From Salvelinus alpinus (lineage: Eukaryota; Chordata; Actinopteri; Salmoniformes; Salmonidae): 64,000 nt of DNA. A program made the position numbers and the translations under genes. Positions 9,270 through 54,984 of the stretch are shown piece after piece; the first letter of the stretch is position 1; each line of letters starts with the position of its first letter. The DNA is taken from contig NC_092120.1 in assembly GCF_045679555.1 (NCBI RefSeq), positions 12,575,805 through 12,639,804 of the forward strand, in the 5' to 3' direction. The notes beneath the pieces were generated by a model that saw nothing but the letters and a program-made list of their open reading frames with translations, did no database searches and was not told the DNA's origin.

Positions 9270-11660
9270 ATGTCTGACATTATGTTAAACCTGGACTGTT
9301 CGGGCAGCAGTGGACCCTGTAAGGACTCATTGGGAAGCAACAAACACAAGGCATTCATCAACAGGCGGCGACTCTTGGAGAAAAAGGGTTACCTCAACAA
9401 AAAGCAGAACCAGCAAAATCGCAGACAGGGGAATAAACATCAGGGCCCACCTCCCTGGCACAATGGGGCCAATCGGCCATCTCAACCCAATGCTGCACAC
9501 AACAAAAGCATTGCTCACACGCAGAATACTCACAGTAAAAGTTCATATCGAATACCCAGGTCAGATCATGCTAGAAGTGTTGCTTCCAAGCCTGCATCAT
9601 CCACAAGCAGCTCAACATCTTTGACCATAACTGTGGAGAATTCCACCAATCCTGAGCAATCCACTTCGGCTATCACCCCGGGGCACCAACCCCCACCCAC
9701 CAGGACTGTTGCCCACTATGCCCCTGTCCCAAGTGGGTCGGCCCCCCTTTGTAACCCCCTGAAGTACCTTGCCTTGGACTGTGAGATGGTCGGCACGGGC
9801 CCCAAGGGTCGCAACAGTGAGCTGGCACGATGCAGTATTGTCTCCTATGATGGAGACGTGGTGTATGACAGGTACATCAAGCCCACCAATCCAGTCACTG
9901 ACTACCGGACTCGTTGGAGTGGCATCTCCTGGCATCAACTGGTCAAAGCCATGCCATTTCAACATGCCAGGAAGGAGGTAAGAAGGCTCCCGGAAGAGAA
10001 TGTTCAAAGGAGGATGAAAAATATGTTTTCCGGTTAACCTTTTTCTACCGTAAAGGACCTATGAGCATATCAAATTGGGTGTCAAATGAAAGCAAAGAGT
10101 CTATATTTTGGGGAAATGAAGGCATAGATACATTTTTCAAACATTATCCATCTTAAAAATGTGATATTAGCAAAGGCTTTGATTTCTGGATAAACAGATG
10201 GAAAAGGGGTCTTAGAAAACATATACCCGAAAAAGTCTTAAAAGGTATCAGAAATACATCAAAACACAGTAATGTTGAAGTAAAGACCCCTGCCAACTAA
10301 TATTAACACTTGTCATTCATTTTGAACTGGACTGTTTTTACAGCATGAGCGGTCATGAGTAGATGCGCTTGTTTTGAGATCAAAGCGAGAGCTACGTGTA
10401 GTGACGTGTGCATATTTGTTCATATACTTTGTTAGTGAGTTATTAGCCCAATTACAGATCATTTGTAGTCGACAATGGAGGATTGATTGCTTCCTACAAG
10501 AGCACAAAACGTGAGCATTTTCTTTGAAAAGCGAGTCAGGTAAATAGCTTTGTAGTGTTGTATTTTGAGACCGGCTTGAATAAGCTAAGTAGCCAATAGG
10601 CAGAGGGTAGCATAATTTGTCTGATTCACTGTAGCAATGGTATGGGAATAATTATGCATTTTATTTTGTAAAGTGGTTTCTTGTATCAAACAACACAACA
10701 TTTGTTGTCGTCTTGTCTGAAGGTCAAGTGGATTAACAGGTTAATGTCAAGCCCTGCATGTTTTTTTTTTCCAAAAGTCTCATGTAATGTAGGCCTATAT
10801 TGAACACCACACATTGGCTGCTACTGTTGATTTTTCTACTCACAGCAGCCTACTTGACCACTGTTAAAACTAACCTAAAGCGGGAACAGCATCAGTGTTC
10901 ACAGTAAACGTGCGCCGGAAGTTGCACTGAATTTTCACAACGTTCGAGTTTGCACTCAGCAGACCTGAAATTTGTTCAGTGATTTTAAAAAATTAGAGGG
11001 AACATTGGTGGTATGGTTTGTTAAACTTTGAAATCAATGGTTTTAGTTTGGCATACATTTTCAAGTGAAAAAACTGAGTCAAAGCGTAAATCTGTTACAG
11101 TGGAATTGCCCCTTAATCTATTCTATTTGGACCTTTGCTAAACTTGACCATGATATCATTTGATCTCTTATATGTATTCCCCCCTCCTATAGATACTGAA
11201 GATCCTTGCAGGAAAGGTGGTGATAGGGCATGCTGTCCATAATGACTTCAAGTCCCTGAGTTACAGTCACCCTGCTGTCTTAACGCGGGACACATCCCGC
11301 ATTCCTCTCCTCAACCAGAAGGCTGGCTTTCCAGAGAAAGATGTTGCCTCACTGAAAAGACTCACCAAGGCCCTGTTCAACCGCAACATCCAGGTGAGAA
11401 GAGACTTCTGATTGAAACGGGATTGATTTGAATATAATCTACAGTGATTCACTCTGGGTTGTTGTTTCTAGTCTCGACAAAAGTAGTAAGCTAATAAACC
11501 TCTTATTGTGTAGCTTATGTTATTTTGTAGTAACAAGGAATTCCCCTTGTGTTCTCAGACTGGGAAGAAGGGGCACTCGTCCGTGGAGGACGCCAAAGCC
11601 ACCATGGAACTGTACAAAGTTGTGGAGGTGGAGTGGGAGAGGACCTTAACCTCCAAATAA
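9270..11660 (+). CDS. isg20l2: Interferon-stimulated 20 kDa exonuclease-like 2, DEDDh 3'-5' exonuclease
   Basis: Three coding exons, 9270-9977, 11193-11393 and 11559-11660, join in frame to 336 residues (human protein 353). Residues 1-160 are basic and low-complexity ([15 protein letters not shown]; His/Pro/Ser-rich), consistent with the nucleolar-targeting tail of the family. The exonuclease fold follows. ExoI is [15 protein letters not shown] with Asp170 and Glu172, ExoII is GHAVHNDF with Asp254, and ExoIII is [14 protein letters not shown] with His309 and Asp314. All DEDDh catalytic residues are present. The mammalian protein trims the 3' end of 12S pre-rRNA during 5.8S rRNA maturation in the nucleolus; that role is known for the family and inferred here. 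The ATG at 9270 opens a frame with the usual N-terminus. An untranslated exon probably ends after the acceptor near 9093. The gene faces away from the mettl25b remnant. Confidence 0.93.
9978..11192 (+). other. First intron of isg20l2
   Basis: The intron has a gtaaga donor and an acceptor after 'cccctcctatag'. I recognise no transposon or nested gene in it. The reading frames inside it show no protein similarity. Confidence 0.6.
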
Positions 11661-12194: not shown

Positions 12195-13375
12195 AATGAA
12201 TGGCGCCCAAGAACATGGCTGACGTTTTACATTCTCCCAATCAATTGTGCTATTTTGTTATTTTTTTTGCGTTTTGCGTAACTTTAAAAAAAACTTATTG
12301 TGTACATAATGTTGCTGCTACCGTATCTTATGACTGAAAAGAACTTCTGGACATCAGAAAAGCGATTACTCACAGCGGACTGGAAGAAACTTTTTCCTTT
12401 AACGAGTTCGACAAGAAGGATATCCTGCTTTCACTGGAACAGGCCCAGATCCACGCCTTTTGCGTGAAGAAAAGATGCCGGAAAAGGGGCCGCAGATCAA
12501 GCATCCTTCTGAGAATCCGGAGACGAGCGAGTTAACTCCCACTGCCTTCCATTCTTCTTGCTAACGTGCAATCATTGGAAAATAAAATTGATGACCTACG
12601 ATTAAGACTATCCTACAATAGTGGCCACAAAGCTCATCACTAAGCTAAGGACTCTGGGACTCAACACATCCCTCTGCAACTGGATCCTGGACTTCCTGAC
12701 GGGCTGCCCCCAAGTGGTAAGAGTAGACAACAACACGTCTGCCACGCTGATCCTTAACACTGGGGCCCCTCAGGAGTGTGTACTTAGTCCCCTCCTGTAT
12801 TCCCTGTTCACCCACAACTGTGTTGCCAAACACGACTCCAACACCATCATTAAGTTTGCTGACGACACAACAGTGTTGGGCCTGATCACCGACAACGATG
12901 AGACAGACTATAGGGTGGAGGTCAGAGAACTGTCAGTGTGTTGCCAGGACAACAACCTCTCCCTCAATGTGAGCAAGACTAAGGAGCTGATCGTTGACTA
13001 CAAGAGAAGGCGGTCCGAACAGGCCCCCCATTTACATCGACAGGGCTGTAGCGGAGCAGGTTGAGAGTTTCAAGTTCCTTGGTGTCCACATCCCCAACAA
13101 AATATCATGGTCCAAACACACCAAGACAGTTGTGAAGAGTGCATGACAAAACCTATTCTTTCTCAGGAAACTGAAAAGATTTGGCATGGGTCCCCAGATC
13201 CTCAAAAGGTTCTACAGCTGCACCATCGAGAGCATCCTGACCAGTTGCATTACCGCCTGGTATGGCAACTGCTCGGCATCTGGCCGTAAGGCGCTACAGA
13301 GGGTTGTGCGAATGGCCCACTACATCACTGGTGCCAAGCTTCCTGCCATCCAGGACCTACAGTTGAAGTCGGGAG
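12195..13375 (+). mobile_element. Internally deleted L2/CR1-group LINE, plus-strand piece
   Basis: The 5' part (12195-12620) matches the 5' region of the LINE seen inverted at 13376-14140, with the start of the endonuclease domain (LLANVQSLENKIDDLR in broken frame). It then jumps directly to the reverse-transcriptase domain at 12621 ([26 protein letters not shown] with the FADD catalytic box, [17 protein letters not shown]). The finger region and most of the endonuclease are missing. After 13064 the frame is broken but the familiar C-terminal blocks (CTIESILTSCITAWYGNCSA) continue to about 13340. There is no proper 3' tail. Confidence 0.8.
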
Positions 13376-21779: not shown

Positions 21780-23384
<1,605 letters not shown>

Positions 23385-23689: not shown

Positions 23690-24834
23690 TGTTAGAAAGT
23701 GATCACTAAAGCAACCAGTGCACTGGGTTTGCAGCATGACTGCGCAGTTCATTCACCAACACATCCAGTGGGGGGGGGGACTCTATTCATGTATACATTT
23801 TTGCACCCTCTAAGAAACGCACTGCTTATTTGAATACACCGGCCTGCTCAGAATGGGTAATGTGGCGGTCCTATCGAGTCAGTGGGGAAAATGTGTAGCT
23901 GTGTCTTTAGTGCGTAGGTAATGTTGATGGGGTGGGGGTGGTTGGGGTTTAACATTTAGGTTGCTAAAAGGGATATAATGATGATAAAGCAGTGGAGTTG
24001 GAGAAAGGGCTTTGTGCCATGCCATCCTGGGGGAATTTGGGGGACATCAGAATTCTGCTCACACTCGAGAGCTCCCAAAGTCTGACTCATGCCAACTGGA
24101 TAACACCAAGGCCACACAGACAGTTCCTCTCTAACACACTCTAGTTGACTGTGACTGATGCTAAAAGGCACATGCTGTACACAGCTACTCTATCGACACA
24201 CACACACACAATCTGACTAATGACACTCCTTGACTTAAAGAGATTTATATACACATGTAAAAACACAATTCCCCACAAACACATATCCATAATCTCATCA
24301 ATTAACTTATTGGAAGCTCAACAAAATTCTGCAGAACTAAAGAACAATCCCTCACACTTGTCATACAAATCAATTTGTCAAAATGAAGAATGAATATTTG
24401 TTATTTCAAAAGGACTTCAGCCTGGTCAGGACTGACGTTGCATGTGATGGATTAACACACCCTCCTATCCGTTCTCAAGGTCTCTGCTAAATGACAGCGC
24501 TGATGTCTTAGCCACGGCTTTTACTTTACGGTAGTAGAGGCTGAGGTGGTTGGTGAAAGTTGGCCACTTGCCACTGTCTAGTAATATACTCTGAGGTTGA
24601 TGAATGCCTGTAAGCATGAATCAATATTTTTTTATTTTTTTATCTTGTCTCTAGGTATCCAAAGAGGCCGCATGACCCTCTGAGAGTTATTGAGGGAGTC
24701 ATCCCTACCTCTGCCTCTTCTTACTTTCTCTACAGCACTTCTCCATTTGTCTATTAAGCTGTCACTATAATGATAATGTCTTTCTCTCTTTGTCTCTCTC
24801 TCCCCCTCCACCTCTCTTTTTCTCTCTATTGCAG
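23690..24834 (+). other. Region upstream of bcan coding sequence
   Basis: No coding exon is recognised. The stretch contains a G run at 23769, a short CA tract near 24200 and pyrimidine-rich tracts before the acceptor at 24833-24834. Untranslated bcan exons and promoter may lie here or farther left; none can be assigned from sequence alone. Confidence 0.45.
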
Positions 24835-24841
24835 ATTGGAG

Positions 24842-27800
24842 ATGCTCCTGTCTTTGCTGCTGTGTGCCATCTGTCCGCTCGTCCTACCGTCCTCCTCTAC
24901 CCCCAGCCAAGCCTCAGGTGCGTGACTACCCCGTCAGCCCCGGCTATACTGACATCCATTTAATTATCTATGACCTTTGACTTCTAAGGGTATAGGGGCA
25001 CTTTTTAATCACTCCCCGATCATTCATAGTTTTTGCTGACACACACACTCTGGAAACAATTTTAGAAGGTGTGACTTTAGAAGCATAAATCAAGGTTAAC
25101 TGATGTGCCCAGGTGTGTAGAGGACGTGTCTCATCCGGTATTTGTGTCAACAACACCATGACGGCAAGTGACAACTGGCAAGACTGTTGAATGGGTTCCA
25201 GACTTTAACAAATAACATTAACTGCAACCTGAGACGCCCCCCAATTGTTTTTAAACTGGGAACTTTTTGACTGTATAAAGTCAGCAATTTAACCCCTTCA
25301 TTCTGCACTCTCCAGATGACTCCAGACTCCTACAGGTGACCATCCCTACGACCCCTCCCTTATCTGCCGTCTTGGGGGGCTCTCTTACCCTACCTTGCCT
25401 GGTGTCTCTGTCCCACCCGCCCCCCAATACAAATGGCCGCCATGCCGTACTCTCCCTACCCAGGGTCAAGTGGAGCGTGCTGTCCCAGGGACACGAGACT
25501 GAGATCCTGGTGGCCCGAGGGGACAGGGTGAAGGTCAGCGAGGCCTACAAGGACAGAGCCTCCCTGCTCCATTACGCCTCCTCCCCAGCCGACCTCACCC
25601 TGAGGCTGAAGGGCCTGCAGTACAACGACTCTGGCTTCTACCGCTGTGAGGTGCAGCAGGGCCTGGAGGATGCCAACGATGTGGCTCAGGTCAAGGTCAA
25701 AGGTGAGGCCAGGGGTTGATGTCATAGATGTAGGGGATAAGCCAGAGTTCCTGACCTATGACAGTAACAACTCAGAAGTGTGTGTGTCAAGGCTTGTGGC
25801 TTGTGATTTTAATAATGAATTCACTTGTTAAATCAACTTCAATTAAAGTTAAAGGAGGACTTTTAAGCCTTGATACAATTGAGACATGGATTGTTTATGT
25901 GTGCCATTCAGAGGGTGAATGGGCAAGACAAAAGACTTAAGTGTCTTTGAACGGTGTATGGTAGTAGGTGCCAGGTGCACTGGTTTGTCTCAAGAACGGC
26001 AATGCTGCTGGGTTTTTCACGCTCAACAGTTTCCCGTGTGTACGTGGGCCAGAACCCCTGTGCAACGCTTTCGACACCTCGTAGAGTCCATGGCCCGATG
26101 AAATTAGGCTGTTCTGGTGCAACTCGATATTAGGAATGTGTTCTTTATGTTCTGTACACTTACTGTACATTTCTGTACCTTTATAATGTCATACAAATTC
26201 TGCTGAGATTAATTGGTTGTCCCACCGTATGCACCCAGAAAGTAATAGATTATGGATTGCCTGACTAATAAAACAGATATAGGCTACCCTTGTGAATGTA
26301 GCTGTAGTTCGCACAAAATACTGAATCTGAAATAACGCCAAGACTGTGGACCCTCAACAGGGGTGGTGTTCCACTACCGGGATGCTTCCAGTCGCTATGC
26401 CTTTACCTTTGCGCAGGCCCGGGACGCCTGTGAGGAGATCGGGGCTCACATCGCCACCCCAGAGCAGCTCTTGGCAGCCTACCACAGTGGCTATGAGCAG
26501 TGTGATGCGGGCTGGCTCTCAGACCACTCAGTGAGGTAAGGGCCCGGCAGAGAAAAGACCACTGTAAATGTTCTCTCATATCAAGCGGACACAGATAGAG
26601 AGATGCTTTCATCCACTTCAATATACTTTCCCCCCTGTTATAACAGTTGTTTAACACTATGTAGTATCAACACCCTTCTCCACAGATATCCCATCCAGAT
26701 GCCACGAGAGGGATGTTTTGGAGACATGGACGGGCATCCTGGAGTGAGGAACTATGGGCTGCCTGAACCTGATGAGCTGTACGATGTATACTGTTATGTG
26801 GAGAATATAGAGGGTAAGAAAATCTTATTTATTGGAGTATTTCATAAATTTGATCAAGTGCAGATGATCACAATCTGATTTCTCCCTCCATATATACAGG
26901 GGAAGTGTTCCATGGATCTGCCCCCCGAAGTTTCACCCTATGGGAAGCTAAGGCCTATTGTCTGGCTCAGGGAGCGGAGCTGGCTACCACAGGTCAGCTG
27001 TATGCAGCCTGGAATGACGGACTGAACGCCTGCAGCCCGGGGTGGTTGGCTGATGGGAGTGTACGCTACCCCATTGTCACTCCCAGGGAGCGTTGTGGTG
27101 GAGGGGAGCCTGGGGTCAGGACTGTCTATCGCCATTTGAACCAGACAGGCTTTCCAGAGGCACACACTCGCCACGACACTTACTGCTTCCGAGGTAAGAG
27201 CTTTTGAAAGCATAGGTATTGATATGATACTGGGCTTCAGTAGTGGCATCCAAACTCAGTTCCTACTGTATTCTAAGTCATCCTCTGGCCTAACTTTTAT
27301 TCATTGCCCTTGCATCTGACAGGCAACAGCAACACTCACACCGAATCTCCCCATGATTACCTGGCAACAGAGCCAGAGGACATCGGCCAGGACATTGTGA
27401 CGCTGCCTGAGCCTCTGGAGGAATTCAGCCTGGGTCAGGTGACGGAGCAGGTGGTGAGCGAAGAAGCTCAGGGCTCCCTGACTGCCGTCCCTGTTCCAGA
27501 GGAGCAGTACGCATCAGAGCATATAGAGGAGCAAGGGGCTGTCCCTGGAGAGCAGTACCCAGAGCAGAGGGCTGTCCCTGGAGAACAGTACCCAGAGCAG
27601 GGGGCTGTCCCTGGAGAACAGTACCCAGAGCAGGGGGCTGTCCCTGGAGAACAGTACCCAGAGCAGAGGGCTGTCCCTGGAGAACAGTACCCAGAGCAGA
27701 GGGCTGTCCCTGGGGAACAGTACCCAGAGCAGAGGGCTGTCCCTGGAGAACAGTACCCAGAGCAGGTGGCTGTCCCTAGAGAGCAGTACCCAGAGCAGAT

Positions 27801-30800
27801 GGCTGTCCCTAGAGAGCAGTACCCAGAGCAGGTGGCTGTCCCTGGGGAGCACGGAGAAGAACAGGGGTTTGTTCCTGGAGAACACGGAGAGGAGCAGGGG
27901 GCTGTTACTGAGGAGGCCTACACCAAGGAGGATGGAGAGGAGCAGGCGGTTGTGCCTGGGCAGCACAGAGAGGAACAGGGGGTTGTTCCTGGGGAGCAGT
28001 ACCCAGACCAGCCTGGAGAGGAGCAGGGGGCTGTCGATGGCCAGGGCCCTACTGTTGTCTATCACGAGGAGCTACCCTTTCCGGTTGAACCCCAAGACCC
28101 ATTCACCCCCACATCCTTCCCCCAAGACCTGGAGCCCACAGAGGACACCTGGCAGCCGGTGAAAGAGGTCAGCAACCCAGAATCATATCAGCCTGCCCCT
28201 GAGGAGACAAACTTAGACTCAAACTACCCAGTCCCACCCTATGATGAGCTGAATGCAAACCCAACACTGTATCCACTTTCTCCCGAGACAAATTATGAGT
28301 CAGGTGATCTTACAACTGCTCATGAAGACAACATTAGTAGCGCCGATCCCTACCAGCCCTTGTCAGAGTCAAACGTGGAATCAGGAGAGCTCTCTATAGA
28401 GGGTGTACCAGGGACTGCTCTGGAGGCCCCCGTGCCCACCACAGGGTATGAGGAGGTGGACGGGTCCAGTGATCCACAGCCCATGCCTGGCACAACCCCT
28501 GAGAGTGGTGTGTCTCAGTATGGTATTTCAGAGGAAAGCCATCTGCAAACAGGGATCACCCAGGAGACCGAACACTACACTTTTACCTCTGAGACCGCAG
28601 GCTACAATGTATCAGGAGTTGAAGCCACTACTAGTCATGACAGCTCTCCAGAGGAGCAACTGGAAAGTGGGCTGCCCACACCTCCTGAGGAGGACCACTT
28701 CGGAGATGAGCATGTCATCCAGGAGCATGTCACAGACACAGACTCGGTCTACCCAAGCACCTCTTACGACCTCTCAGGAGGGTCCATCAGGCCTGAGGGA
28801 GCCATCGCTGGGGGTGTTGAGGAGACATCTGTATCTTCCACTTCACCTCACGAGGAAACGGAGCTCTTCCCTGACCAGTCCACCACTCAGCCTCCATACT
28901 GGGAGAACACACCTGAATACCGCCGTACCAACTCTGTGGACCACAGTGCCAGTGTCCTTCTCCCTGAGGAGCATACCACATCACTGGACTCATTGGTAAT
29001 CCAGACAGCGGAGAACGGTGGCTCTGCTACTGCTGAGTCAGGATACCTGGCTACCTTAAGCCCAGTGGAGATGGACCCCTATGAACTGATCCCTACCTCT
29101 GAATATGGTGAGTCCATAGAGAAGCCTTTCTGTGCATAAGGGGCATTTTTTAAACACTTTTATTTATGTAATGTACTGAAGATTTAGTGTAGTAAATATT
29201 CAGATGTGTATTTAATGGTATTGAATGACATAAAAAGCATGAGCTGGCGCACCCCTAAAAAAGGTGGTAGAGGTGCTGACTAATGGCGTGTAAATTGTAT
29301 TTATTAATTTATCTAACCTTTATTTTACCAGATAAGTTGACTGAGAACACATTCTCATTTACAGCAATGACCTGGGGTATAGTTACACGGGAGAGGAGGG
29401 GGATGAATGAGCCAATTGGAAGCTGGGGATGATATGGTGGCCATGATGGTATGAGGGCCAGATTGGGAATTTAACCACTGGGGTTAACACCCCTACTCTT
29501 ACGAGAAGTGCCATGGGATCTTTAGTGACCACAGAGAGTCAAGACAACTGTTTAATGTCCCATCCGAAAGACAGCACCCTACACAGGGCAATGTCCCCAA
29601 TCACTGCCCTGGGGCATTGGGATATTTTTTTTAGACCAGAGGAAAGTGTGCTTTCTACTAGCCCTCCAACACCACTTCCAGCAGCATCGAGTCTCCCATC
29701 CAGGGACCGACCAGGACCAACCCTGCTTAGCTTCAGAGCCAAGCCAGCATTCGGATGCAGGGTGTTATTCTATAAAAAGCTATAAAATTGTAGGCTATTC
29801 AAAATTAAAAATTAAATAAAAATAGAGTTGCACACTCTATATACAAGCTCCCAGTCATTTATTTGATAAACCACCAACATTTCAGCATCACTGTGCCTTC
29901 TTCAGGGTAATGTCATGAATGCTTTAACGTGAATGTCTACATAACCTGGTTCAAGCATTCATGACATTACCTTGAAGGCACAGTGATGCCGAAACGTTGG
30001 TGGTTAACCCAATAAATTACTCGAAGCTTGCACAGTATTTATTTTATATTTACGTTGATTTAACTAGGCAAGTCAGTTAAGAACAAATTCTTATTTTCAG
30101 TGACGGCCTAGGGACAGTGGGTTAACTGCCTTGTTCAGGGGCAGAATGACAGATTTTTACCTTGTCAGTTCGGGGAATCGATTTTGCAACCTTTCGGTTA
30201 CTAGTCCAATGCTCTAACCGCCCCGTATATCTTTATTAAATTACATGAAAACATCTGTGCATATGTAATGTGTGATACATTTTTTTTATTAAGAGCTGAA
30301 CACTCAAGTGTGGACAGGGTTACACTAACCGTAGGCTTGAATAATGTTTGTGATCTGTTTCCTGGCAGCTTTTGACCCCACTCAGGAGCAGTCTGGTGTC
30401 ACGTCACCTGACTCCTCTACCCTAGATGACCATGTGGAGCAGAAGGCAGGAGGCACAGTGGACTCATTATCAGAAGTTTCCATGGGCTCCACTGACCTGG
30501 GTTCAGTTCCAACTGACGAAGTCCTCACAGTTACTTATGACACTGGCTCTAATGAAGCCTCTGGGGTCCACGAGGGAATGCTTGACGTTACCCTCTTGAC
30601 ATCCCCCAAACCTATAACCTATTCCCCCCCGACCCAGCGATCCGTGGAAGCAGAGGCCAGCTCCCCAGGTGACTTCATAACCTTCATCCCAGAATCCAGC
30701 GTTCCATCTGGGTTTGATCCCCTGGAGGAAGGGCTGGAGAAGGTGGAGCGAGAGGGGTTGGGGGAAATCTCAGAAGTAGTCGAAACTACTACCCCAGAGA

Positions 30801-33744
30801 CGGCTTCTGGTGAGGAGGGGAGTGGAGATGAGCAGAATGGTCAGGAGGTGAGTGGAGAAGAGGAGAGTGGTCAGGAGGTGAGTGGAGACAAGAAGAGTGG
30901 TCAGGAGGTGAGTGGAGACAAGAAGAGTGGTCAGGAGGTGAGTGGAGACGAGAAGAGTGGTCAGGAGGTGAGTGGAGATGAGAAGAGTGGTCAGGAGGTG
31001 AGTGGAGACGAGGAGAGTGGCCAGGAGGCGAGTGGAGACGAGGAGAGTGGTCAGGAGGCGAGTGGAGACAAGGAGAGTGGTCAGGAGGCGAGTGGAGACG
31101 AGCAGAGTGGTCAGGAGGCGAGTGGAGACAAGGAGAGTGGCCAGGAGGCGAGTGGTCAGGAGGAGAGTGGAGATGAGGAGAGTGGTCAGGAGGCGAGTGG
31201 AAACAAGGAGAGTGGCCAGGAGGCGAGTGGAGACGAGGAGAGTGGTCAGGAGGCGAGTGGAGACGAGGAGAGTGGTCAGGAGGCGAGTGGAGACGAGGAG
31301 AGTGGTCAGGAGGCGAGTGGAGACCAGGAGAGTGGCCAGGAGGCGAGTGGAGACGAGGAGAGTGGTCAGGAGGCGAGTGGAGACGAGGAGAGTGGTCAGG
31401 AGGCGAGTGGAGACGAGAAGAGTGGTCAGGAGGCGAGTGGAGATGAGGAAAGTGGTCAGGAGGCGAGTGGAGACGAGGAGAGTGGTCAGGACGCAAGTGG
31501 AGACGAGGAGAGTGGTCAGGAGGCGAGTGGAGATGAGGCGAGTGGAGACAAGGAGAGTGGTCAGGAGTTGAGTGGCCAAGAGGGAGTAGAGTCCGGCTCA
31601 GGATCAGGATCAGGCGAGGTGCATTCTGCATCTGCTGAATCTGGAGAAAGCTCAGGGATCCTTGAACCAGAAGTCCCATACATCAATGAAACTGTCACTC
31701 CCATCAATGGCACAACTGTCAATGGCACAGATGAAAGCGAGCCTGAGTCGAGCACAGATGCGCCCTCTACTGACATGGAGATCACGCTGCTCCCTGACTT
31801 GTCCCAGACCCCCGTGCCCTCACCCACCGTACCCCAGGAGTCCCGGGCCGATGTAGATCTGGAGTACAGTGGGGAGACCTCAGTCACGGAGGATCCTGAC
31901 TCCATCACTCCACCCACTGAGGAGCCTGAGGAGACCCCCAGCCCGACGCCCACCACAGTAGACTACGATGACCAGACTACGACGGCAGCACCCCTATATC
32001 CAGAGGACGTTGATGAGGAGAAAGTGATTACCACTCCTACTACTCCAAGATTTGGGAACATTTCAGGTAACGTTCAATGCAACTCAAACCATGGCAATTA
32101 TTTGAATGCATGTGTTAATGCAAATCATAATTGCATACTTTCTACCATATACCTCATCTTAAATTACTCACTTGACTCTTGTATTTATTTTATGGTCTCA
32201 TGCCTCCCCCACTCTGCTTAGTCATTAGAACGTTTTTAAAAATGCATTCACATGGCAGTCAGAGTAAACAACTGACTCAGCAAAAGAAGGGGATGATCAT
32301 TGTTTCTGTTGGAGGTAAACACACAGCAGGGGGAGCTGTCTCTGTTCATAGCAGCAAAGGATTGGGAACATAATATGCAGTGACCTCCAAAGGTATTCGT
32401 ACAGTGACAATTTTTGTTTTTCCTTTGGCTCTACTCCAGCACTTTGGATTTGAAATGATACAATGACTATGAAATTCTAAACACTTCTACATTAATGTGG
32501 ATGCTACCATGATTACGGCTAACCGTGAATGAATCGTGAATGATGATGACTGAGAAAGTTAGAGGCATAGATAACATACCCCTCCAAAAGTGTTTTGAAA
32601 CATATTCTATTCTTATTTCCAATACAAGTGACTCCAAAATGACACATTACATTATTCACCATTCATTTGTATTGGGCACAAAATAATCTGAAACACAACC
32701 AAAACAAATGCATCCAACAGGTTTGTAGTCACAAGCTTGATGTACTGTATTTAGTCATTGTGTGCTAGGAATTTTGGACCAAATACTAATCTTTCAACTA
32801 CTTGTATACACATAAGTGAATTTGTCCAAATACTTTTGGTTGCCTAAAATGGGGGGACTATCTACAAAAAGTGCTGTAAATTCACCCGATATGTATGAAA
32901 ATACCCTTACATAAAAGCTGACAGTCTGCACTTTAAGCTCATAGTCATTGTATCATTTCAAAGCGCTGGAGTACAGAGGCAAAACAAAAATAAACAAAGG
33001 GGCAGTGCAGTCAAAACAGGATTTCCTGTTTTTTGTAATGATATTTCCACACTATGAGGTCGAAATAACACTCTGAAATTGTAAAAATTATGATCATTCC
33101 CTTTTAGTACAAGAGCTTTTTTTTAAAGAAAAAAAATACCTGGAATTTCAGCCTGTTCAGGTGGGAGGGAGTTTTTGGCCCACAGCATGACATCACAATC
33201 CAATCTGATTATTCTGACCAATGACCAGTCATCTTTTATTTGCATATGTATCCTCTTACATTGAAGGGGCTCTAGAGTCTAGACAATCCTATCTGCCAAG
33301 CAGGGCAGGGCAGGCAAGTATATGTAAATATATTTCAATTTGTATCAACAAGCTCACACAATCATACTGAGCAATTAAATGGCAAAATGAGACTCAGGAA
33401 GTTATTTTCAAGTAGTTATTTTCATTTATTAGACATATACAGTGATGATCTAAAAATAAAATGTAAAAGAATCCACTTCATATATGCATGTGAAAAGGTC
33501 ACCTATGTATGAAATTTCCTCAGTACAGGGGCTTGAATAGGTAAAATTATATTTTCTATAAGCTGAACACTCAGGCCACTGTAGGCCTATAGTCAGTCAG
33601 TCTGGTGATGAGTACTGTTGGTATAATTGCTCCCTCCAGTGGCACTTAAATAAATTCCCATGTAAATCAACAATAAAGTGATCCCGTCGTATCTGTCCTT
33701 TACATCGACACTATATAGAGGGGATTCAAAAATGGAACAAATGG

Positions 33745-33818
<74 letters not shown>

Positions 33819-36800
33819 ATATTTTAGATATGTTGTTACTGCATTTACATTGGTGCCAATGCTTGTCCTCTCCTACCTTTGTCTCAGATGCCTGCCTAGA
33901 TAATCCTTGTTCCAACGGGGGAACATGTGTCGACAGTGGGTCTTCAACCAAGTGCCTTTGCTTGCCCACCTATGGAGGAAACATGTGCCAGACAGGTACA
34001 GTAACAGATTTCATGTTTTGTTTTCTCAAAGATAATGTTGAAATAATTAACATTATAATGTTATGTGTTATTATAATATAATGTTAATTATGTATATTTT
34101 TGTCTCCTCTGTGTGCATCTAACCTCTTCTTCTTCATGTTGGTTAGACCTGGAGGTGTGTGAGCCGGGTTGGGAAAAGTTCATGGGCTTCTGTTACCAAC
34201 ATTTCACCAAGCGTCAGGGCTGGGAGGTGGCAGAGCAGCACTGTCGTTTGTGTGGCGGTCACCTGATCTCGGTCATGACCCCTGAGGAACAGGACTACAT
34301 TAATGGTACAGCAGGCCTGAAAACATGTCCTTTGATCTTGTAACAGACAGCGCCGAGTGCTCTGCATAACTTGACCTGTGTGACCCTCATTCCCTGGATT
34401 GTTAAAAAGGTGTAATTCAATCACTTAAATGGGAAAATTTGTTAATTTAACTATTTATCAGAGCTTCATTTAGTGTGAACAGAACTTAGTCCTAAAATGC
34501 ATAAACTGAATGCGTAATGACCCCTCTGTAACCCCAGTACCATCTGTGAGGAATATTTTGTAAACAAATGAATTTATTTGTTTAAAGGTTGAATGGTCCA
34601 GGGAAGACGCAACATTGTCTTCTTTCATGTCTTACCTGCCATTCACTCATTTTACCCTGGCTTTGATGCCAGTGTTGATATTGTGTCTGGAAATATGTAG
34701 CAGACGATTATCTAGCATTCCTTAGTTGTTTCCCATTGCCTGTAGTCTTACAGCGGCCCCTACTTGCTAGTGAGCGAGTGTTTGCAGGCCCAAAGTTACA
34801 GTGAGCTCTCTCTTTCCCTTTAGATAAGTACAGAGAGTACCAGTGGACGGGACTGAATGACAGGACCATAGAGGGAGACTTCCGCTGGTCTGACGGGAAT
34901 CCTCTGGTGAGTCTCACATAGTCTGTGTTCCCATCAAATATGTCTAGGTTCTCCATAAACATAATGTTAATTGCATGAACGTGCCTCTGGGATTGTATCC
35001 CATTGGTATACAGAACATCCTCACTTATGTTTTGTTAGACCTGGTGCAAAAATAACCTCCTCCTGGTATGTGATCTGCTTCTCATGCTACTTCACAGCTA
35101 CTGTATACAGTGGGGCAAAAAAGTATTTAGTCAGCCACCAATTGTGCAAGTTCTCCCACTTAAAAAGATGAGAGAGGCCTGTAATTTTCATCATAGGTAC
35201 ACTTCAACTATGACAGACAAAATGAGAAAAAGAAATCCAGAAAATCACATTGTAGGATTTTTAATGAATTCATTTGCAAATTATGGTGGAAAATAAGTAT
35301 TTGGTCACCTACAAACAAGCAAGATTTCTGGCTCTCACAGACCTTCTTTAAGAGGCTCCTCTGTCCTCCACTCGTTACCTGTATTAATGGCACCTGTTTG
35401 AACTTGTTATCAGTATAAAAGACACCTGTCCACAACCTCAAACAGTCACACTCCAAACTCCACTATGGCCAAGACCAAAGAGCTGTCAAAGGACACCAGA
35501 AACAAAATTGTAGACCTGCACCAGGCTGGGAAGACTGAATCTGCAATAGGTAAGCAGCTTGGTTTGAAGAAATCAACTGTGGGAGCAATTATTAGGAAAT
35601 GGAAGACATACAAGACCACTGATAATCTCCCTCGATCTGGGGCTCCACGCAAGATCTCACCCCGTGGGGTCAAAATGATCACAAGAACGGTGAGCAAAAA
35701 TCCCAGAACCACACGGGGGGACCTAGTGAATGACCTGCAGAGAGCTGGGACCAAAGTAACAAAGCCTACCATCAGTAACACACTACGCCGCCAGGGACTC
35801 AAATCCTGCAGTGCCAGACGTGTCCCCCTGCTTAAGCCAGTACATGTCCAGGCCCGTCTGAAGTTTGCTAGAGAGCATTTGGATGATCCAGAAGAAGATT
35901 GGGAGAATGTCATATAGTCAGATGAAACCAAAATATAACTTTTTTGGTAAAAACTCAACTCGTCGTGTTTGGAGGACAAAGAATGCTGAGTTGCATCCAA
36001 AGAACACCATACCTACGGTGAAGCATGGGGGTGGAAACATCATGCTTTGGGGCTGTTTTTCTGCAAAGGGACCAGGACAACTGATCCGTGTAAAGGAAAG
36101 AATGAATGGGGCCATGTATCGTGAGATTTTGAGTGAAAACCTCCTTCCATCAGCAAGGGCATTGAAGATGAAACGTGGCTGGGTCTTTCAGCATGACAAT
36201 GATCCCAAACACACCGCCCGGGCAACGAAGGAGTGGCTTCGTAAGAAGCATTTCAAGGTCCTGGAGTGGCCTAGCCAGTCTCCAGATCTCAACCCCATAG
36301 AAAATCTTTGGAGGGAGTTGAAAGTCCGTGTTGCCCAGCAACAGACCCAAAACATCACTGCTCTAGAGGAGATCTGCATGGAGGAATGGGCCAAAATACC
36401 AGCAACAGTGTGTGAAAACCTTGTGAAGACTTACAGAAAACGTTTGACCTCTGTCATTGCCAACAAAGGGTATATAACAAAGTATTGAGATAAACTTTTG
36501 TTATTGACCAAATACTTATTTTCCACCATAATTTGCAAATAAATTCATAAAAATCCTACAATGTGATTTTCTGGAGAAAAAAAATCTAATTTTGTCTGTC
36601 ATAGTTGAAATGTACCTATGATGAAAATTACAGGCCTCTCTCATCTTTTTAAGTGGGAGAACTTGCACAATTGGTGGCTGACTAAATACTTTTTTTGCCC
36701 CACTGTATGTGAACTAACAGTATTACAACTCCTCTACTTCTTCATCATCCTTCCCATCTTTCTCTGCCAGTTGTATGAGAACTGGTACCGGGGCCAGCCG

Positions 36801-37482
36801 GACAGTTACTTCCTGTCTGGAGAGGACTGTGTGGTGATGGTATGGCATGACGGGGGGCGCTGGAGCGATGTGCCCTGTAACTACCACCTCTCCTACACCT
36901 GCAAGAAGGGCACCTGTGAGTACACAACCAAAACCACCACTGTAGTGTAGCATAGAAGTCCTCAATCTCTCAGTATGGTTTTAATGTATTTGCACCCCTA
37001 ACAGCATTATTTCTGTTCAGCTTTCTGTGGCCAGCCCCCCGTCATTGCCAATGCCAAGGTGTTTGGTAAGTCGCATCTGCGCTACGAGACCAACTCCAAG
37101 GTGCGCTACTACTGTGAAGAAGGATTCCTCCAGACACAGAACCCCGTCATTAAGTGCCTATCCAACGGCCAATGGGAGGAGGCTTTGATCAACTGTCACC
37201 CTGGTGAGGACAGACATTCATTCTATTGACTGACATGAAACAAAATAATGTATGATGTGTGTGATAGGTCTCTAATGTTATCATTGTATGACCCGCTTAA
37301 GTTATTTTATGCTCACTGTGATAATGACATGATGTACCTGCTATGTTTTTCCAGCCCTGACCAACTTAGCAGAGGGAGAGCAGAAGGTCACAACACCACC
37401 CTATCAGAACGAGGGGGTGGAGGTGGTGGACACAGCCACGGAGAAAGCCACTTCAGAGTTCTGGGACATCAAGTGGAACTAA
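24842..37482 (+). CDS. bcan: Brevican core protein (lectican), 13 coding exons, greatly enlarged central region
   Basis: Coding exons: 24842-24917, 25316-25702, 26361-26535, 26686-26813, 26900-27193, 27323-29107, 30369-32066, 33888-33995, 34147-34305, 34824-34906, 36771-36915, 37021-37203, 37355-37482. Phases join cleanly to 1782 residues and TAA. Order: signal peptide 1-25, Ig V domain 26-154, Link module 1 (155-255), Link module 2 (256-353), acidic central region 354-1514 with two repeat arrays, one EGF module 1515-1550 with six Cys, C-type lectin domain 1551-1679 ([32 protein letters not shown]), CCP/sushi module 1680-1740 with four Cys, and a short tail. Link modules bind hyaluronan; the lectin domain binds tenascins. 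One EGF module (neurocan has two) and the neighbouring hapln2 favour brevican. Human brevican is 911 residues, so the doubling is in exons 6 and 7. Confidence 0.93.
25845..26165. mobile_element. 5'-truncated Tc1-like miniature element in bcan intron 2
   Basis: It is about 85 percent alike by eye to the right half of the element at 21595-23676, sharing 'gggcaagacaaaagac', 'tttgaacggtgtatggtag' and the right end 'cacttactg' before TA. It lacks the left terminal repeat. It contains no complete protein. Confidence 0.7.
27538..28035 (+). repeat. 33-bp coding minisatellite in bcan exon 6 (VPGEQYPEQ repeats)
   Basis: Nine clean copies of an 11-residue unit, [10 protein letters not shown] plus R, G, V or M, run from residue 426 to about 525. 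They are followed by about five diverged units ([20 protein letters not shown]). The period is 33 bases, so copy-number change keeps the reading frame. The unit is acidic and Pro/Gln-rich with no Ser-Gly site, so it probably acts as an extended spacer. Neighbouring copies are nearly identical in DNA, which indicates recent expansion or homogenisation. Confidence 0.95.
29285..29785 (-). mobile_element. 5S-rRNA-derived SINE (OS-SINE1/SINE3 type) in bcan intron 6
   Basis: On the minus strand the head near 29775-29690 resembles 5S rRNA, including the stretch complementary to 'ccctgcttagcttcagag' and 'gtctcccatccagggac'. A central conserved body follows, complementary to 'ttaacacccctactcttacg' and 'gaaagacagcaccctacac'. 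The 3' end is complementary to 'cctttattttaccagataag', the same tail family as the LINE ending at 63775. It is one of the 5S-headed fish SINEs; the exact family name is inferred. Confidence 0.8.
29871..30003. repeat. Near-perfect foldback (hairpin) sequence in bcan intron 6
   Basis: The left arm (29871-29925, starting ccaccaacatttcagcatca) pairs with the right arm (29952-30003, ending gaaacgttggtgg) over about 50 bases with few mismatches, leaving a loop of about 25 bases. It contains no coding region. It could be a miniature foldback transposon; no target duplication is evident. Confidence 0.8.
30041..30224 (-). mobile_element. HpaI-family SINE in bcan intron 6
   Basis: On the minus strand a tRNA-derived head with 'ggttagagcattggactag' and 'accgaaaggttgcaaaatcg' leads to a unique region holding a GTTAAC (HpaI) site at 30121-30126. 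The 3' tail, complementary to 'ttaactaggcaagtcagtta', is shared with the LINE tail. This is the classical salmonid HpaI SINE. Confidence 0.88.
30821..31569 (+). repeat. 30-bp coding minisatellite in bcan exon 7: Ser-Gly chondroitin-sulfate attachment repeats
   Basis: About 24 complete copies plus three partial ones of a 10-residue unit, consensus [10 protein letters not shown], occupy residues 1100-1349. Each unit offers two Ser-Gly dipeptides preceded or followed by acidic residues, the known context for xylosyltransferase priming of chondroitin sulfate. I count about 50 Ser-Gly pairs in the array, plus more in the following SGSGSGSG stretch. DNA of neighbouring units is almost identical (agtggagacgaggagagtgg core). 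Aggrecan has a comparable CS region, whereas mammalian brevican carries only a few chains. Copy number may differ between alleles. Confidence 0.96.
32375..33005. mobile_element. Large palindromic (foldback) repeat in bcan intron 7
   Basis: The left end contains 'ctactccagcactttggatt' followed by 'gaaatgatacaatgactatg'. The right end holds the complement of the same blocks (tcatagtcattgtatcattt, agcgctggagtacag), giving inverted arms of about 75 bases. The core includes 'acaacc..aaacaaatgcatcc' and no coding sequence. It matches a salmonid non-autonomous palindromic repeat known from general experience; the left arm is partly deleted. Confidence 0.65.
33747..33813 (+). repeat. (CA)n microsatellite
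   Basis: An uninterrupted CA dinucleotide tract of about 33 units lies about 75 bases upstream of the bcan EGF exon. Its length makes it likely to be polymorphic. Confidence 0.97.
35108..36705 (+). mobile_element. Tc1/mariner element, full length, in bcan intron 10
   Basis: The ends are CAGTGGGGCAAAAAAGTATT and its complement, flanked by TA at 35106-35107 and 36706-36707. The inverted repeats extend over 200 bases. The element is 1598 bases and lies in the same orientation as bcan between the second and third lectin-domain exons. Its right end is only 65 bases before the acceptor of the exon at 36771. Confidence 0.93.
35465..36488 (+). pseudogene. Disabled Tc1 transposase
   Basis: From the ATG at 35465 the frame encodes both N-terminal helix-turn-helix regions ([39 protein letters not shown]) and [20 protein letters not shown]. 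It is stopped by TAG at 35915-35917, where the family has Trp before SDETKI. A second stop follows after DETKI and a one-base shift occurs near 35945. The catalytic half then continues: [31 protein letters not shown] (Asp), [15 protein letters not shown] (Glu), ending TKY at 36488. It is of a different subfamily from the copy at 22148. Confidence 0.88.
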
Positions 37483-37582
37483 TAAGCTCATCAAACTCAA
37501 TATGCCCCTTCCCTCTGCCCCCTTCCCTGGAATCCTATGTTCCACTCAAAGACTGTCCCTCCAACAAGTTGGAGCCTTGTAA

Positions 37583-37644
37583 AATAAATGTTCTCCCTGA
37601 GAATGAGTCATCACATTCCTGTCACCAGCTCTCTCCAGAATAAA
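37583..37644 (+). terminator. Polyadenylation signals of bcan
   Basis: Two AATAAA hexamers, at 37583-37588 and 37639-37644, follow the bcan stop codon by about 100 and 157 bases. Either could be used. Confidence 0.55.
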
Positions 37645-37649
37645 CCCAT

Positions 37650-39185
37650 TCAAAACATCAACAGACTTGATGTTACTCGGACCTAGTGCCGATCGATCAC
37701 ACTTACAATAAGAGTACATCCCAACATATGGCCACGATTAGAGGTAATGGATCAAATTTGCACAGTACAGTTTGTCATTGGAATGAGCTTTAACGAAGAT
37801 GTCCCATCCATCATTGGGCTTGTTTGTTGTATAATGATATGTGATTGTTGACTAGTGAAATTCTTTGATATTCACCTGTGCTACGACACTGTTGGATTAC
37901 TGTATTTGACTGCGATTAACATATATTATGACATGTTTATGATGGTATACAGTAAGATTTTGATGGAGAGTTTTAGTAAAGTGCAATCTAAATCTCAACC
38001 TCAGCTGGTCTGACATTAACCGAAACCACTTTCCCCACTCTCTGCCACCAAGACAGAATTAAGATGTCCACTTTCGTATGCTTTTGTATAAGAAAATCTC
38101 CTTATCAATCCATATCTTCTCAATTCCCACAACACAAAGCATTTTCTCAACATGTCCTCTTATCTGGTGCTTTGTTTTTCAGGTGTCTTGCGAACTTTGG
38201 ACCCAAAATTAGAAGCCAATATCCACTTTTAATGTACTTGGTTTGAAAATAGCCAGAATCCAAAGTTTTTTTTTTTTATACTCTCGTAAAAACGTAATCA
38301 CTAAGATACTAGGAAGAACATGTGAAAATGTCCACAATGGTATTTCCGTTTTCATGCATCAATGATGTCATTGTCTTAGTTCCAGTGGAAGTAATACTGT
38401 ACGTTGGTAGTGTTTAACAGTAATCAAATAATGCTAATTGTAAATCCCATTTGTGACTGCACAATTGCATATTGAACTTGTTATGAAAGAAAAAATGTAA
38501 TTGTTAAACTAATTAAAAAGGAGATGGATTAAATGAAAATAAGAAAAATATCGTTTTTGGAGAGTAGAAAATACATATCTAATAAAATGAATTGATTACA
38601 ATGTATTTATCCATGTGAATATGGTTGCATTTGAATTATATTTTCATGCCACATATCAAATACACTGTCAAGATATTTTATTGTATTACAGTTATGCTCA
38701 GTGCGTATACTTTCTCCCATTCTGCTATTTACACACTCTTACATCAGCTAAGAAGCTAACAGCAGCATTTTATGAAATTGTCATTGTGTAATAACTACCC
38801 TGTTACACTAGAATAATGCTTCTTGGATAACAAAGTTCACAAAACGAATGTTACACAAATGCAGGAAAACATGTACAGCAGTTGTTACCTGTAGCAGTAA
38901 AGCTCATAAAAGTGGCAGGCTTTTGTTGATGTGTCCCATGGAAAAAGGCATTAAGTATTTGAGGTTTCCTGTAATAACATATTGTAGTATTGCAGAAAAG
39001 CGCAGTGCTACTTGTATCTTTTTGCCATTGTTGTGGAACCAGTTCCTAGCCTTTTGACTACCTGTATCTGCAAGCCCTGCGTACTGAAACCTGTAGGGGT
39101 CACTGGTAATCTTCACAATGGTTCTGCGTCTTGGATCTACGAAGTCAGTGGAAGTAGGCTCCACACGCAATGGGTCTCATGAAAG
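37650..39185. other. Intergenic region between the 3' ends of bcan and hapln2
   Basis: The two genes converge here and share about 1.7 kb of downstream sequence. The DNA is AT-rich and I see no exon. Potential AATAAA signals in both directions (for example near 38580 on the plus strand) may mark UTR ends. Confidence 0.5.
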
Positions 39186-42577
<3,392 letters not shown>

Positions 42578-50173: not shown

Positions 50174-51668
50174 AACTCAGCAAAAAAAGAAACGTCCTCT
50201 CACTGTCAACTGCGTTTATTTTTAGGAAACTTAACATGTGTAAATATTTGTATGAACATAACAAGATTCAACAACTGAGACATAAACTGAACAAGTTCCA
50301 CAGATGTGACTAACAGAAATGGAATAATATGTCCCTGAACAAAGGGGGGGTCAAAATCAAAAGTAACAGTCAGTATCTGGTGTGGCCACCAGCTGCATTA
50401 ATTAAGTACTGTAGTGCATCTCCTCCTCATGGACTGCACCTGATTTGCCAGTTCTTGCTGTGAGATGTTACCCAACTCTTCCACCAAGGCACCTGCAAGT
50501 TCCCTCACATTTCTGGGTGGAATGGCACTAGCCCTCACCCTCCGATCCAACAGGTCCCAGACGTGCTCAATGGGATTGAGATCCGGGCTCTTCGCTGGCC
50601 ATGGCAGAACACTGACATTGCTGTCTTGCAGGAAATCACGCACAGAACGAGCAGTATGGCTGGTGGCACTGTCATGCTGGAGGGTCATGTCAGGATGAGC
50701 CTGCAGGAAGGGTACCACATGAGGGAGGAGGATCTTCCCTGTAACGCACAACATTGACATTGCCTGCAATGACAACAAGCTCAGTCCGATGATGCTGTGA
50801 CACACCGGCCCAGACCATGACGGACCCTTCACCTCCAAATCGATCCCGCTCCAGAGTACAGGCCTTGGTGTAACACTCATTCCTTCGACGATAAACGTGA
50901 ATCCGACCATCACCCCTGGTGAGACAAAACCGTGACTCGTCAGTGAAGAGCACTTTTTGCCAGTCCTGTCTAGTCCAGCAACGGTGGGTTTGTGCCCATA
51001 GGCGACGTTGTTGCTGGTGATGTCTGGTGAGGACCTGCCTTACAACAGGCCTACAAGCCCTCAATCCAGCATCTCTCAGCCTATTACGGACAGTCTGAGC
51101 ACTGATGGAGGGATTGTGCATTCCTGGTGTAACTCAGGCAGTTGTTGTTGCCATCCTGTACCTGTCCCAAAGGTGTGATGTTTGGATATACCGATCCTGT
51201 GCAGGTGTTGTTACACGTGGTCTGCCACTGCGAGGACGATCAGCTGTCCGACCTGTCTCCCTGTAGCACTGTCTTAGGCGTCTTACAGTATGGACATTGC
51301 AATTTATTGCCCTGGCCACATCTGTAATCCTCATGCCTCCTTGCAGCATGCCTAAGGCACGTTCACGCAGATGAGCAGGGACCCTGGGCATCTTTCTTTT
51401 GGTGTTTTTCAGAGTCAGTAGAAAGGCCTCTTTAGTGTCCTAAGTTTTCATAACTGTGACCTTAATTGCCTATCGTCTGTAAGCTGTTAGTGTCTTAACG
51501 ACCGTTACACAGGTGCATGTGCATTAATTGTTTATAGTTCATTGAACAAGCATGGGAAACAGTGTTTAAACCCTTTACAATGAAGATCTGTGAAATAATT
51601 TGGATTTTTACGAATTATCTCTGAAAGACAGGGTCCTGAAAAAGGGATGTTTCCTTTTTTGCTGAGTT
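50174..51668 (-). mobile_element. Tc1/mariner element with AACTCAGCAAAAAAAG ends
   Basis: The left end AACTCAGCAAAAAAAGAAAC and the right end ttccttttttgctgagtt are inverted copies, flanked by TA (50172-50173, 51669-51670). The element is 1495 bases and carries one disabled transposase on the minus strand. The terminal repeats are short (about 25-30 bases), unlike the 200-base ends of the copies at 21780 and 35108. Confidence 0.9.
50398..51391 (-). pseudogene. Disabled Tc1-type transposase
   Basis: From 51391 downward it encodes the N-terminal helix-turn-helix region (RALGMLQGGMRITDVARAIN, VRRLRQCYRETGRTADRPRS). The catalytic domain follows: VLFTDESRF (first Asp), LQHDSATSHTARSVRDFL (second Asp) and [18 protein letters not shown] (Glu). 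An in-frame TGA interrupts after MATTTA near 51134. A one-base loss near 50737, after RYRE, shifts the frame before ILLPHVVPFLQAHP. Otherwise the family length of about 330 residues is preserved. Confidence 0.88.
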
Positions 51669-52135: not shown

Positions 52136-52691
52136 TCACTTAGCTAGCGAATGTACAGTAGCTAGCTAGTGTAGCCTACTCAAACACCCAGCTCATAAAG
52201 AGAGGAATGCTATGTTAGCTAGCTGGCTATGGCTATCACACTGGAACTGTCACACCCTGATCTGTTTCACCTGTCTTTGTGCTTGTCTCCATCCCCCACC
52301 AGGTGTCTCCCATCTCACCTCATTATCCCCTGTGCATTTATACCTGTGTTCTCTGTTTGTCTGTTACCAATTTGTTTTGTTCGTCAAGCCTACCAGCGTT
52401 TTTCCCCTTGCTCCTGTCTTTTCTAAAGTTCCTGTTTTCTAGTTTTCCCGGTTTTGACCATTCCTGCTTGCCGTCCTGTACCTTGTCCCACCACACTGGA
52501 TTATTGACCTCTGCCTGCCCTGACCCTGAGACTGCCTGCCATTCTGTACCTCTTGGACTCTGCTCTGGATCCTGACCTCTGCCTGCACTTGACCTGTCGT
52601 TTTGCCTACCCCTGTTCTAGTAATACACTTTTGTTACTTCGACACTGTCTGCTTCTAGGTCTTTCCTGAAATGTGATAGTACGAACTGGCC

Positions 52692-53405
52692 ATGACCGAC
52701 CCAGCAGACTCAGACCAGCTCCCCAATGCTGTCTCCCTGCAAGGAGCCACCATTGGACGACACGAGGAGTTACTGCAAAGTCTTATGGAGAGACTCGATA
52801 CCCTGGCAGCACGCCATGACCAGGCGTTCGAGACTTTGCTGGAGCAATTCCTTGGATTCCCCACTGGGCAGCAGATCACACCCGTAATCTCCCAGCCTAC
52901 CCCAGTGTCCCAAGAACCCTGCTTACCTCCTCTGGGACGCTACGCTGGAGATTCCGGAACCTGCCGGGCTTATCTCTCCCAGTGCTCCCTCCTTTTCAAG
53001 CTGCAGCCTTCTTAATTTCCCTCGGACCGCTCGAGGATAGTGTACATCATAACGTTGATGTCTGGGAGGGCACTCACCGGGGCTACGGCGGTGTGGGAGC
53101 AACAGTCCACCATCTGCCTCAGTCTAGAGGAGTTTGATGCGGAAGTTCGGAAGGTGTTTGATTCTCCGTTGTCTGGGAGTGAGGCTGCTCGTAAGCTGCT
53201 CCAGCTACGTCAAGACTCCCGTAGTGTGGCAGACTGCGCGGTGGATTTTCGCTCGTTGGCGGCTGAGAGTGCCTGGAACCCGGAAGCATTGTTTGACATG
53301 TTCCTTCATGGATTATCGGAGGTGGTCAAAGATGAGCTTGCAGCCCGGGAGCTGCCCATGGACCTTTACTCCCTCATAGCCTTGACCTTGCCCAACCCGG
53401 ATTGA
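52692..53405 (+). pseudogene. gag of the Ty3/gypsy element, with one internal stop
   Basis: The frame starts MTDPADSDQLPNAV just after the LTR. It has a coiled-coil-like stretch (HEELLQSLMERLDTLAARHD) and the sushi/PEG10-type gag core (CRAYLSQCSLLFKLQP, then SGRALTGATAVWEQQ, VADCAVDFRSLAAES and LHGLSEVVKDELAARELP). One in-frame TAA (53013-53015) interrupts it. After 53405 the frame is shifted but a zinc-knuckle remnant (LYCGPMGHFVATC, near 53650-53690) remains, with Phe in place of its first Cys. Confidence 0.82.
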
Positions 53406-53759
53406 TGGGTGGCTTCGAGAACGTAGGAGGAAGAGGGAATTTGTGCCCTGTCGCCCTCATTTGCCCTCGAACCCACCTCACCTCCAAAGAATCCCGGAGA
53501 CCCCCGAAGTCTACATGTTCGAGTGAACCCGATGTCACACGAGTTCTCTCGGGAATCACGAGGGCTGCCGACTCGCCTCCTTCAGAGTCCAAGCACCTGG
53601 GCAGGGCTAGATTGACTCTGGCTGAGCGCTTACGCCGACACCCAGAGCTTTCTATATTGTGGACCTATGGGACATTTCGTGGCTACCTGCCATTTAAAAA
53701 TCCAAGCTCATCAATAAGGGGTGAATACTCTGGTGGGCCTTATGGAAAACTTTTCCTCT

Positions 53760-54900: not shown

Positions 54901-54984
54901 GCCTATGTCCAGGGTGCAGCCAAAATGTTTCCACCAACTGTTATTGACGCTTTATCCGGGGTTACAGCACCCTGGCTTCCCCCC

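Follow-up and report, generated by a model that had tools for sequence, protein, structure and literature searches.

The window analysed here is a 64,000-nt stretch of Salvelinus alpinus DNA (NC_092120.1, 12,575,805-12,639,804, forward strand), and all coordinates are positions in this window. It contains on the plus strand a gene for a lectican, best placed as brevican, whose seventh coding exon carries a long in-frame array of Ser-Gly pairs with acidic neighbours. The coding span (24842..37482) consists of 13 coding exons with a coding sequence of 5349 nt including the stop, giving a predicted protein of 1782 amino acids. Every intron is GT-AG, the phases are consistent and there is no internal stop. 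Coding exon 1 (24842..24917) encodes a candidate signal peptide by position and hydrophobicity, and exon 2 (25316..25702) an Ig V-set domain (Pfam V-set, E 8.5e-10). The first link module is divided between exons 3 and 4 (26361-26535 and 26686-26813; Pfam Xlink 3.5e-26, in two stretches), while the second occupies exon 5 (26900..27193; Xlink 1.7e-28). Two large central exons follow, exon 6 (CS-A, 27323..29107, 595 amino acids, 7 Ser-Gly pairs) and exon 7 (CS-B, 30369..32066, 566 amino acids, 61 Ser-Gly pairs), both of phase 1-1. The remainder encodes a single EGF module (exon 8, 33888..33995; Pfam EGF 3.4e-05), a C-type lectin domain (exons 9-11, 34147-34305, 34824-34906 and 36771-36915; Lectin_C 9e-06, on the last only), a CCP/Sushi module (exon 12, 37021..37203; Sushi 1.5e-08) and, by the exon model, a C-terminal tail with the stop (exon 13, 37355..37482). 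Known structures agree with the model: the aggrecan G1 structure 9dff_A matches protein residues 22-354 (E 2.8e-114), and the aggrecan lectin domain 1tdq_B matches the C-terminus of the joined protein (E 4.2e-55). On a simple matrix, which we used for all donor scores, the donors after the EGF exon (0.87) and the first lectin exon (-1.41, after 34305) are weak, and the ends of these two exons therefore rest on phase and homology. With V-set, two Xlink, EGF, Lectin_C and Sushi predicted in lectican order, the gene is an intact lectican.

The Ser-Gly array (30821..31585, plus strand) is 765 bases long and consists of 51 half-units of 15 bases, or 25.5 units of 30, all in frame. Half-units are of two types, A with consensus AGT GGT CAG GAG GCG (SGQEA; general form SGQEx; 26 copies) and B with consensus AGT GGA GAC GAG GAG (SGDEE; general form SGxxx; 25 copies). 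Tandem Repeats Finder (TRF) reports a 30-base period over 30808-31575 with 25.6 copies, 91% matches and 0% indels. An earlier note on this DNA had counted 24 complete 30-bp units, which is close, but the alternation of A and B is broken three times (A-A at 31136/31151, B-B at 31526/31541, A-A at 31556/31571), and the half-unit at 30836 has Asn-Gly in place of Ser-Gly. Ser-Gly is thus retained in 50 of the 51 half-units, in agreement with the roughly 50 pairs that the note had placed in one exon, correctly numbered as exon 7; 49 of them start within the interval it had given (30821..31569). Whole-protein Ser-Gly pairs number 72. When the residues of CS-B were shuffled in 2000 trials, the mean was 12.5 pairs and the maximum 22, as against the 61 real ones. 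Even outside the array CS-B has 11 pairs where 3.4 are expected, a number reached in 1 of 2000 shuffles, and directly 3' of the array lies a Ser-Gly-rich tail with the run SGSGSGSG (31586..31660). Besides array and tail, the exon carries four N-glycosylation sequons; its net charge (Lys+Arg minus Asp+Glu) is -133, and it has no Cys.

Adjacent units had also been described as nearly identical. Base identity at a 30-base shift within the array is 0.909. Neighbour likeness was tested separately for each half-unit type, as the breaks in alternation blur shift identities. For type A only 4 of 5000 shuffles of the order reached the likeness of successive half-units, whereas for type B 1178 of 5000 did, so that neighbours resemble each other only in part more than the units do in general. 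A 90-base higher-order period has a TRF row of its own, scoring 720 versus 598 for the 30-base row; the shift identities, blurred by the three breaks, gave no peak for such a repeat, which may exist all the same. The array is 79% purine on the plus strand, and this unit composition accounts for the extra open frames that run across it. Those on the minus strand (30770-31597 and 30789-31682) and the other plus frames were rejected as genes, and a Pfam HC2 match of 19.9 bits, read in a different frame and short of the cut-off of 40, was taken as due to composition.

Which lectican this is can be read from its modules, its sequence and its neighbours. Neurocan and versican have two EGF modules each and brevican one; a Pfam search of 24001-39002 in all three plus frames, with hits accepted to E 0.01, found no second EGF. 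Aggrecan has a G2 pair of link modules, and in a search for such a pair only two Xlink matches were present in 24001-33002 (three frames) and none in 33001-39002 on the plus strand. The lectin domain is 74.0% identical to BCAN, whereas identity to the remaining lecticans is 56.6, 58.1 and 60.8%; the reference sequences for these and the following identity values were entered by hand, and the affinity to brevican is thus a strong lead and not the outcome of a database search. The G1 domain is 64.6% identical to human brevican. On the minus strand lies a hyaluronan and proteoglycan link protein gene (39192..42217; V-set 8.3e-11; Xlink 3e-16, 8.6e-08 and 3e-23), which among the three HAPLN sequences compared is most like HAPLN2 (HAPLN2 72.6% over 62 residues, HAPLN4 62.1% over 58, HAPLN1 58.1% over 62). 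On the other side is part of an ISG20L2-like gene (9270..10034, plus strand; best PDB match 7yw5_A, ISG20L2, E 3.8e-26; Pfam RNase_T), and ISG20L2 is a neighbour of human BCAN. The lone EGF, these neighbours and the similarity to brevican together place the gene best as brevican, the identity proposed in the earlier note. On the same lone EGF, lectin identity and HAPLN2-like and ISG20L2-like neighbours we rejected neurocan, even though its link-protein neighbour is convergent with it, like the arrangement in the window.

In this window the brevican-like gene (plus) and the HAPLN2-like gene (minus) are convergent (24842-42217), as the lectican-HAPLN pairs of mammals other than BCAN-HAPLN2 are known to be. 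Pairing of HAPLN2/BRAL1 with brevican has been described in Fugu (PMC514892) and sunfish (PMC5016917), and BCAN, with HAPLN2 named in a legend, maps in both mammals and chicken to the nestin/transitin region (PMC2075511). In the dog, by contrast with the convergent order here, the BCAN promoter and first exons are reported downstream of HAPLN2 (PMC3898273), so that the pair is in tandem there. The convergent order may be the older one.

We consider it the simplest reading, and a probable one, that CS-B is a glycosaminoglycan (GAG) attachment domain enlarged by tandem duplication, analogous rather than homologous to the chondroitin sulfate (CS) repeats of aggrecan. Xylosyltransferases are reported to put xylose on Ser-Gly in unstructured regions (PMC10570366), and attachment sites have acidic residues close by (PMC8418075, PMC10424144). 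The array has a motif of this accepted kind, in keeping with the earlier premise that acidic residues near Ser-Gly favour attachment: all 50 array pairs have at least two Asp/Glu within -4..+5, and they stand in an exon for which no Pfam match was found at E up to 1, the two marks that we took for a GAG domain. The stringent chondroitin attachment motif described for C. elegans, [DE][GA]SG (PMC8418075), fits 19 of the 50, and the units QEASG and DEASG resemble the decorin site EDEASG (PMC10424144). Stretches of -5..+5 around the array sites have a median isoelectric point of 4.05, and acidity is reported to go with higher CS sulfation (PMC10424144). As to the type of chain, CS is the default in vitro unless EXTL3 overrides it (PMC10570366).

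For the array we infer the following origin. A five-codon Ser-Gly-acidic motif, lying in a Ser-Gly-rich region, would have been paired into a ten-codon unit, and tandem duplication of this unit would then have brought the array to about 25 units. Many serines of the acidic stretch, which has no folded domains, would be modified by xylosyltransferase in the Golgi, and CS as the default, or mixed chains of CS and heparan sulfate (HS), would be built on the xylosylated serines. Held between a predicted hyaluronan-binding N-terminus and a lectin C-terminus, these chains would form a denser sulfated brush in brain matrix than that of mammalian brevican.

Relative to the half-unit consensus, amino-acid differences occur in 1 of 102 Ser/Gly codon cells versus 27 of 153 other codon cells (p 6.7e-6), and the contrast persists without the 12 CpG transitions (p 0.003). 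Synonymous differences are equally frequent in both (5 of 102 and 8 of 153). These counts are suggestive only of selection on the Ser-Gly codons, and several points weigh against it or against GAG attachment itself. As units copy each other, the codon cells lack independence; with each distinct variant counted once, the contrast falls to p 0.014, or 0.042 without CpG transitions. Distinct synonymous variants, too, are fewer in Ser-Gly codons, 1 out of about 8 possible versus 4 out of about 8 elsewhere. In CS-A Ser-Gly is not enriched, with 7 pairs where 4.0 are expected and 179 of 2000 shuffles giving as many. Five array pairs have Lys at -1, and at a spacing of five residues the sites may stand too close together for all of them to be used. 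Motifs alone are no proof of a proteoglycan (PMC8418075). Finally, one scan with the CS-B protein of a contig collection, which by its description holds no fish genomes, gave 123 pattern matches, none of them confirmed, and no relative; no orthologue was seen.

Another account is that the array is a passive minisatellite, a purine-rich coding repeat grown by slippage and unequal exchange and tolerated in the length-tolerant centre of a lectican, with few serines bearing chains. The preceding exon offers a case in point. CS-A has its own in-frame array of a 33-base unit, EQxAVPxEQYP (27529..28034, plus strand), with nine regular units followed by a degenerate tail; TRF gives 27529-27845, 9.6 copies and 95% matches, with further rows up to 28034. 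Its 168 residues are rich in Glu, Gln and Pro and include two threonines and no serine. It could be either a spacer or a passive repeat, and it shows that the central region of this gene tolerates repeats that add no attachment sites. Likewise, CpG transitions make up 12 of the 27 amino-acid changes in the other codons of the Ser-Gly array, like plain mutation, and successive A half-units, unlike those of type B, are more alike than in shuffles of their order. The GAG domain of medaka versican is only 10% shared with mouse and human (PMC6603046), so such regions evolve loosely. Against this, Ser-Gly is kept in all but one half-unit while the other codons vary, and it is enriched in CS-B beyond the array too. 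We regard the passive reading as unlikely, though it is the strongest of the alternatives.

The array might instead bear HS or a mixture of HS and CS, which is a variant of the attachment reading and compatible with it. In vitro, acidic residues C-terminal of Ser-Gly govern priming by EXTL3, which initiates HS, and a second Ser-Gly raised this priming 5.2-fold in one peptide (PMC10570366). On average 3.04 acidic residues lie in +2..+8 of an array pair, and SGSGSGSG follows the array. Yet the array is without an aromatic residue, and no lectican is known to be an HS proteoglycan. HS on this array is rather unlikely, more so than a passive repeat.

A more elaborate possibility is that the GAG dose of this brevican is adjustable. 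Because CS-A and CS-B are both of phase 1-1, skipping of one of them or of the two together would preserve the frame, and all four combinations are free of internal stops. Omitting CS-A leaves 1187 residues with 65 Ser-Gly pairs, omitting CS-B 1216 residues with 11, and omitting both 621 residues with 4. Versican isoforms V0-V3 arise by alternative splicing, and in the medaka embryos described V1 and V2 junctions were detected whereas V0 and V3 were not (PMC6603046). Versican-like skipping of the central exons could therefore occur here as far as frame goes. In addition, six splice-donor words GAG|GTGAGT (30845..31003, plus strand) lie in the array in phase 0, and each of the first six A half-units contains one. 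They stem from a GTG codon in these half-units, where later A half-units mostly have GCG; GCGAGT, which lacks GT, occurs at 17 further places in CS-B, 16 in A half-units and one in B. The array donor words score 7.13, as against at most 6.64 for the 12 donors in the gene model and 3.52 for CS-B's own donor. The EGF exon needs phase 1, and read from its first base it gives MPA and then a stop. Each internal donor, if spliced to that exon, would accordingly lead to a protein that ends three codons into it, a form without the lectin domain, and the GTG-to-GCG difference between units would activate or silence donors during growth of the array. That brevican is in this way a tunable heavy proteoglycan, its GAG dose set jointly by array copy number, skipping (72, 65, 11 or 4 Ser-Gly pairs) and internal donors, seems to us doubtful, and less likely than an HS-bearing array. 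A pure AC microsatellite (33746-33814, 34.5 copies) ends 73 bases 5' of the EGF exon, where an influence on splicing is possible.

In rodent brevican the ADAMTS site just after G1 reads EA[VM]ESE (PMC2263047). This epitope was not found in the brevican protein of the window. The aligned position resembles aggrecanase sites. A likely ADAMTS site would lie N-terminal of both arrays, and cleavage there would free nearly all Ser-Gly pairs together with the lectin end.

Two further explanations are very improbable. The array could have been made, lengthened or shortened by repeat misassembly, since near-identical 30-base units are difficult for short reads; but the units differ in an ordered way, with GTG in the first six A half-units and mostly GCG later, no unit breaks the frame, and the exon is intact at both ends. 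Even so, the assembly could give a copy number other than the true one. Least probable of all, the serines might be sites of acidophilic kinases in an acidic phosphoprotein tract, as Asp/Glu at +3 for 42 of the 50 (the CK2-type pattern) would allow, but S-x-E, the pattern of the secretory-pathway kinase Fam20C, occurs in only 1 of the 50, and a kinase site needs no Gly after every Ser.

The known systems closest to this gene resemble it in part. Domain order, the single EGF and linkage to HAPLN2 and, as in human, to the ISG20L2 region are those of mammalian brevican. Rodent brevican, however, is reported with 1-3 CS chains or none (PMC2263047), which upholds the earlier statement that mammalian brevican has few chains, whereas the protein here has 72 Ser-Gly pairs. 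Versican is similar in having two large central exons, as in GAG-alpha/GAG-beta, with the phase 1-1 and the four in-frame combinations found here, and dissimilar in its second EGF module. Serglycin and perlecan domain I also have dense Ser-Gly clusters, with acidic flanks in perlecan, but these are short clusters in unrelated core proteins, with no array of 50 sites. A further parallel is the CS1/variable number tandem repeat (VNTR) region of aggrecan, which like this array is an exonic in-frame tandem repeat that determines how many attachment sites a lectican has. Aggrecan has Ser-Gly at about 0.1 per residue, in contrast to about 0.2 here (50 in 255). The human aggrecan VNTR has a 57-base coding unit, and a link between VNTR length and height is reported (PMC12776774); the unit here has 30 bases, made up of 15-base halves, or 10 and 5 residues. 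The description of the array as aggrecan-like therefore holds as an analogy but does not extend to the repeat unit. Aggrecan already provides a case of coding repeats that determine chain number. A 50-site array in brevican was not met among the literature matches listed, none of which, with subscription journals outside their scope, reports a fish brevican with a Ser-Gly array. It may well be visible already in database gene predictions.

Were the brevican of another vertebrate heavily substituted, chain load would be an evolvable, perhaps allelic, property of adult brain matrix and not one fixed by paralogue. The CS load of the matrix is suspected in the failure of mammals to regrow central axons. 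Goldfish do regrow them (PMC5890146), and a brain-matrix gene with a naturally occurring array would offer a handle on this difference between fish and mammals. That such coding repeats can affect a trait is seen in the human aggrecan VNTR (PMC12776774).

The window also contains several stretches that look derived from mobile elements. Inside the intron that separates lectin exons two and three lies a remnant of a Tc1/Sleeping Beauty-type transposase, spread over two overlapping frames (35402-36485; Pfam HTH_SB, HTH_Tnp_Tc3_2 and DDE_3). Another Tc1-type remnant is indicated at about 40308 on the minus strand by an HTH_SB match of 36.9 bits, below the cut-off of 43. Further Tc1-type transposase-like remnants were recognized by eye from open frames at 22100-23165 (plus), 50693-51133 (minus) and 58806-59916 (plus). 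A retroelement-like open frame at 12618-13233 (plus) matches Pfam RVT_1 and ALKBH8_N, and open frames resembling reverse transcriptase or retroelements, again by eye, lie at 52680-55027 and 61052-62624 on the plus strand.

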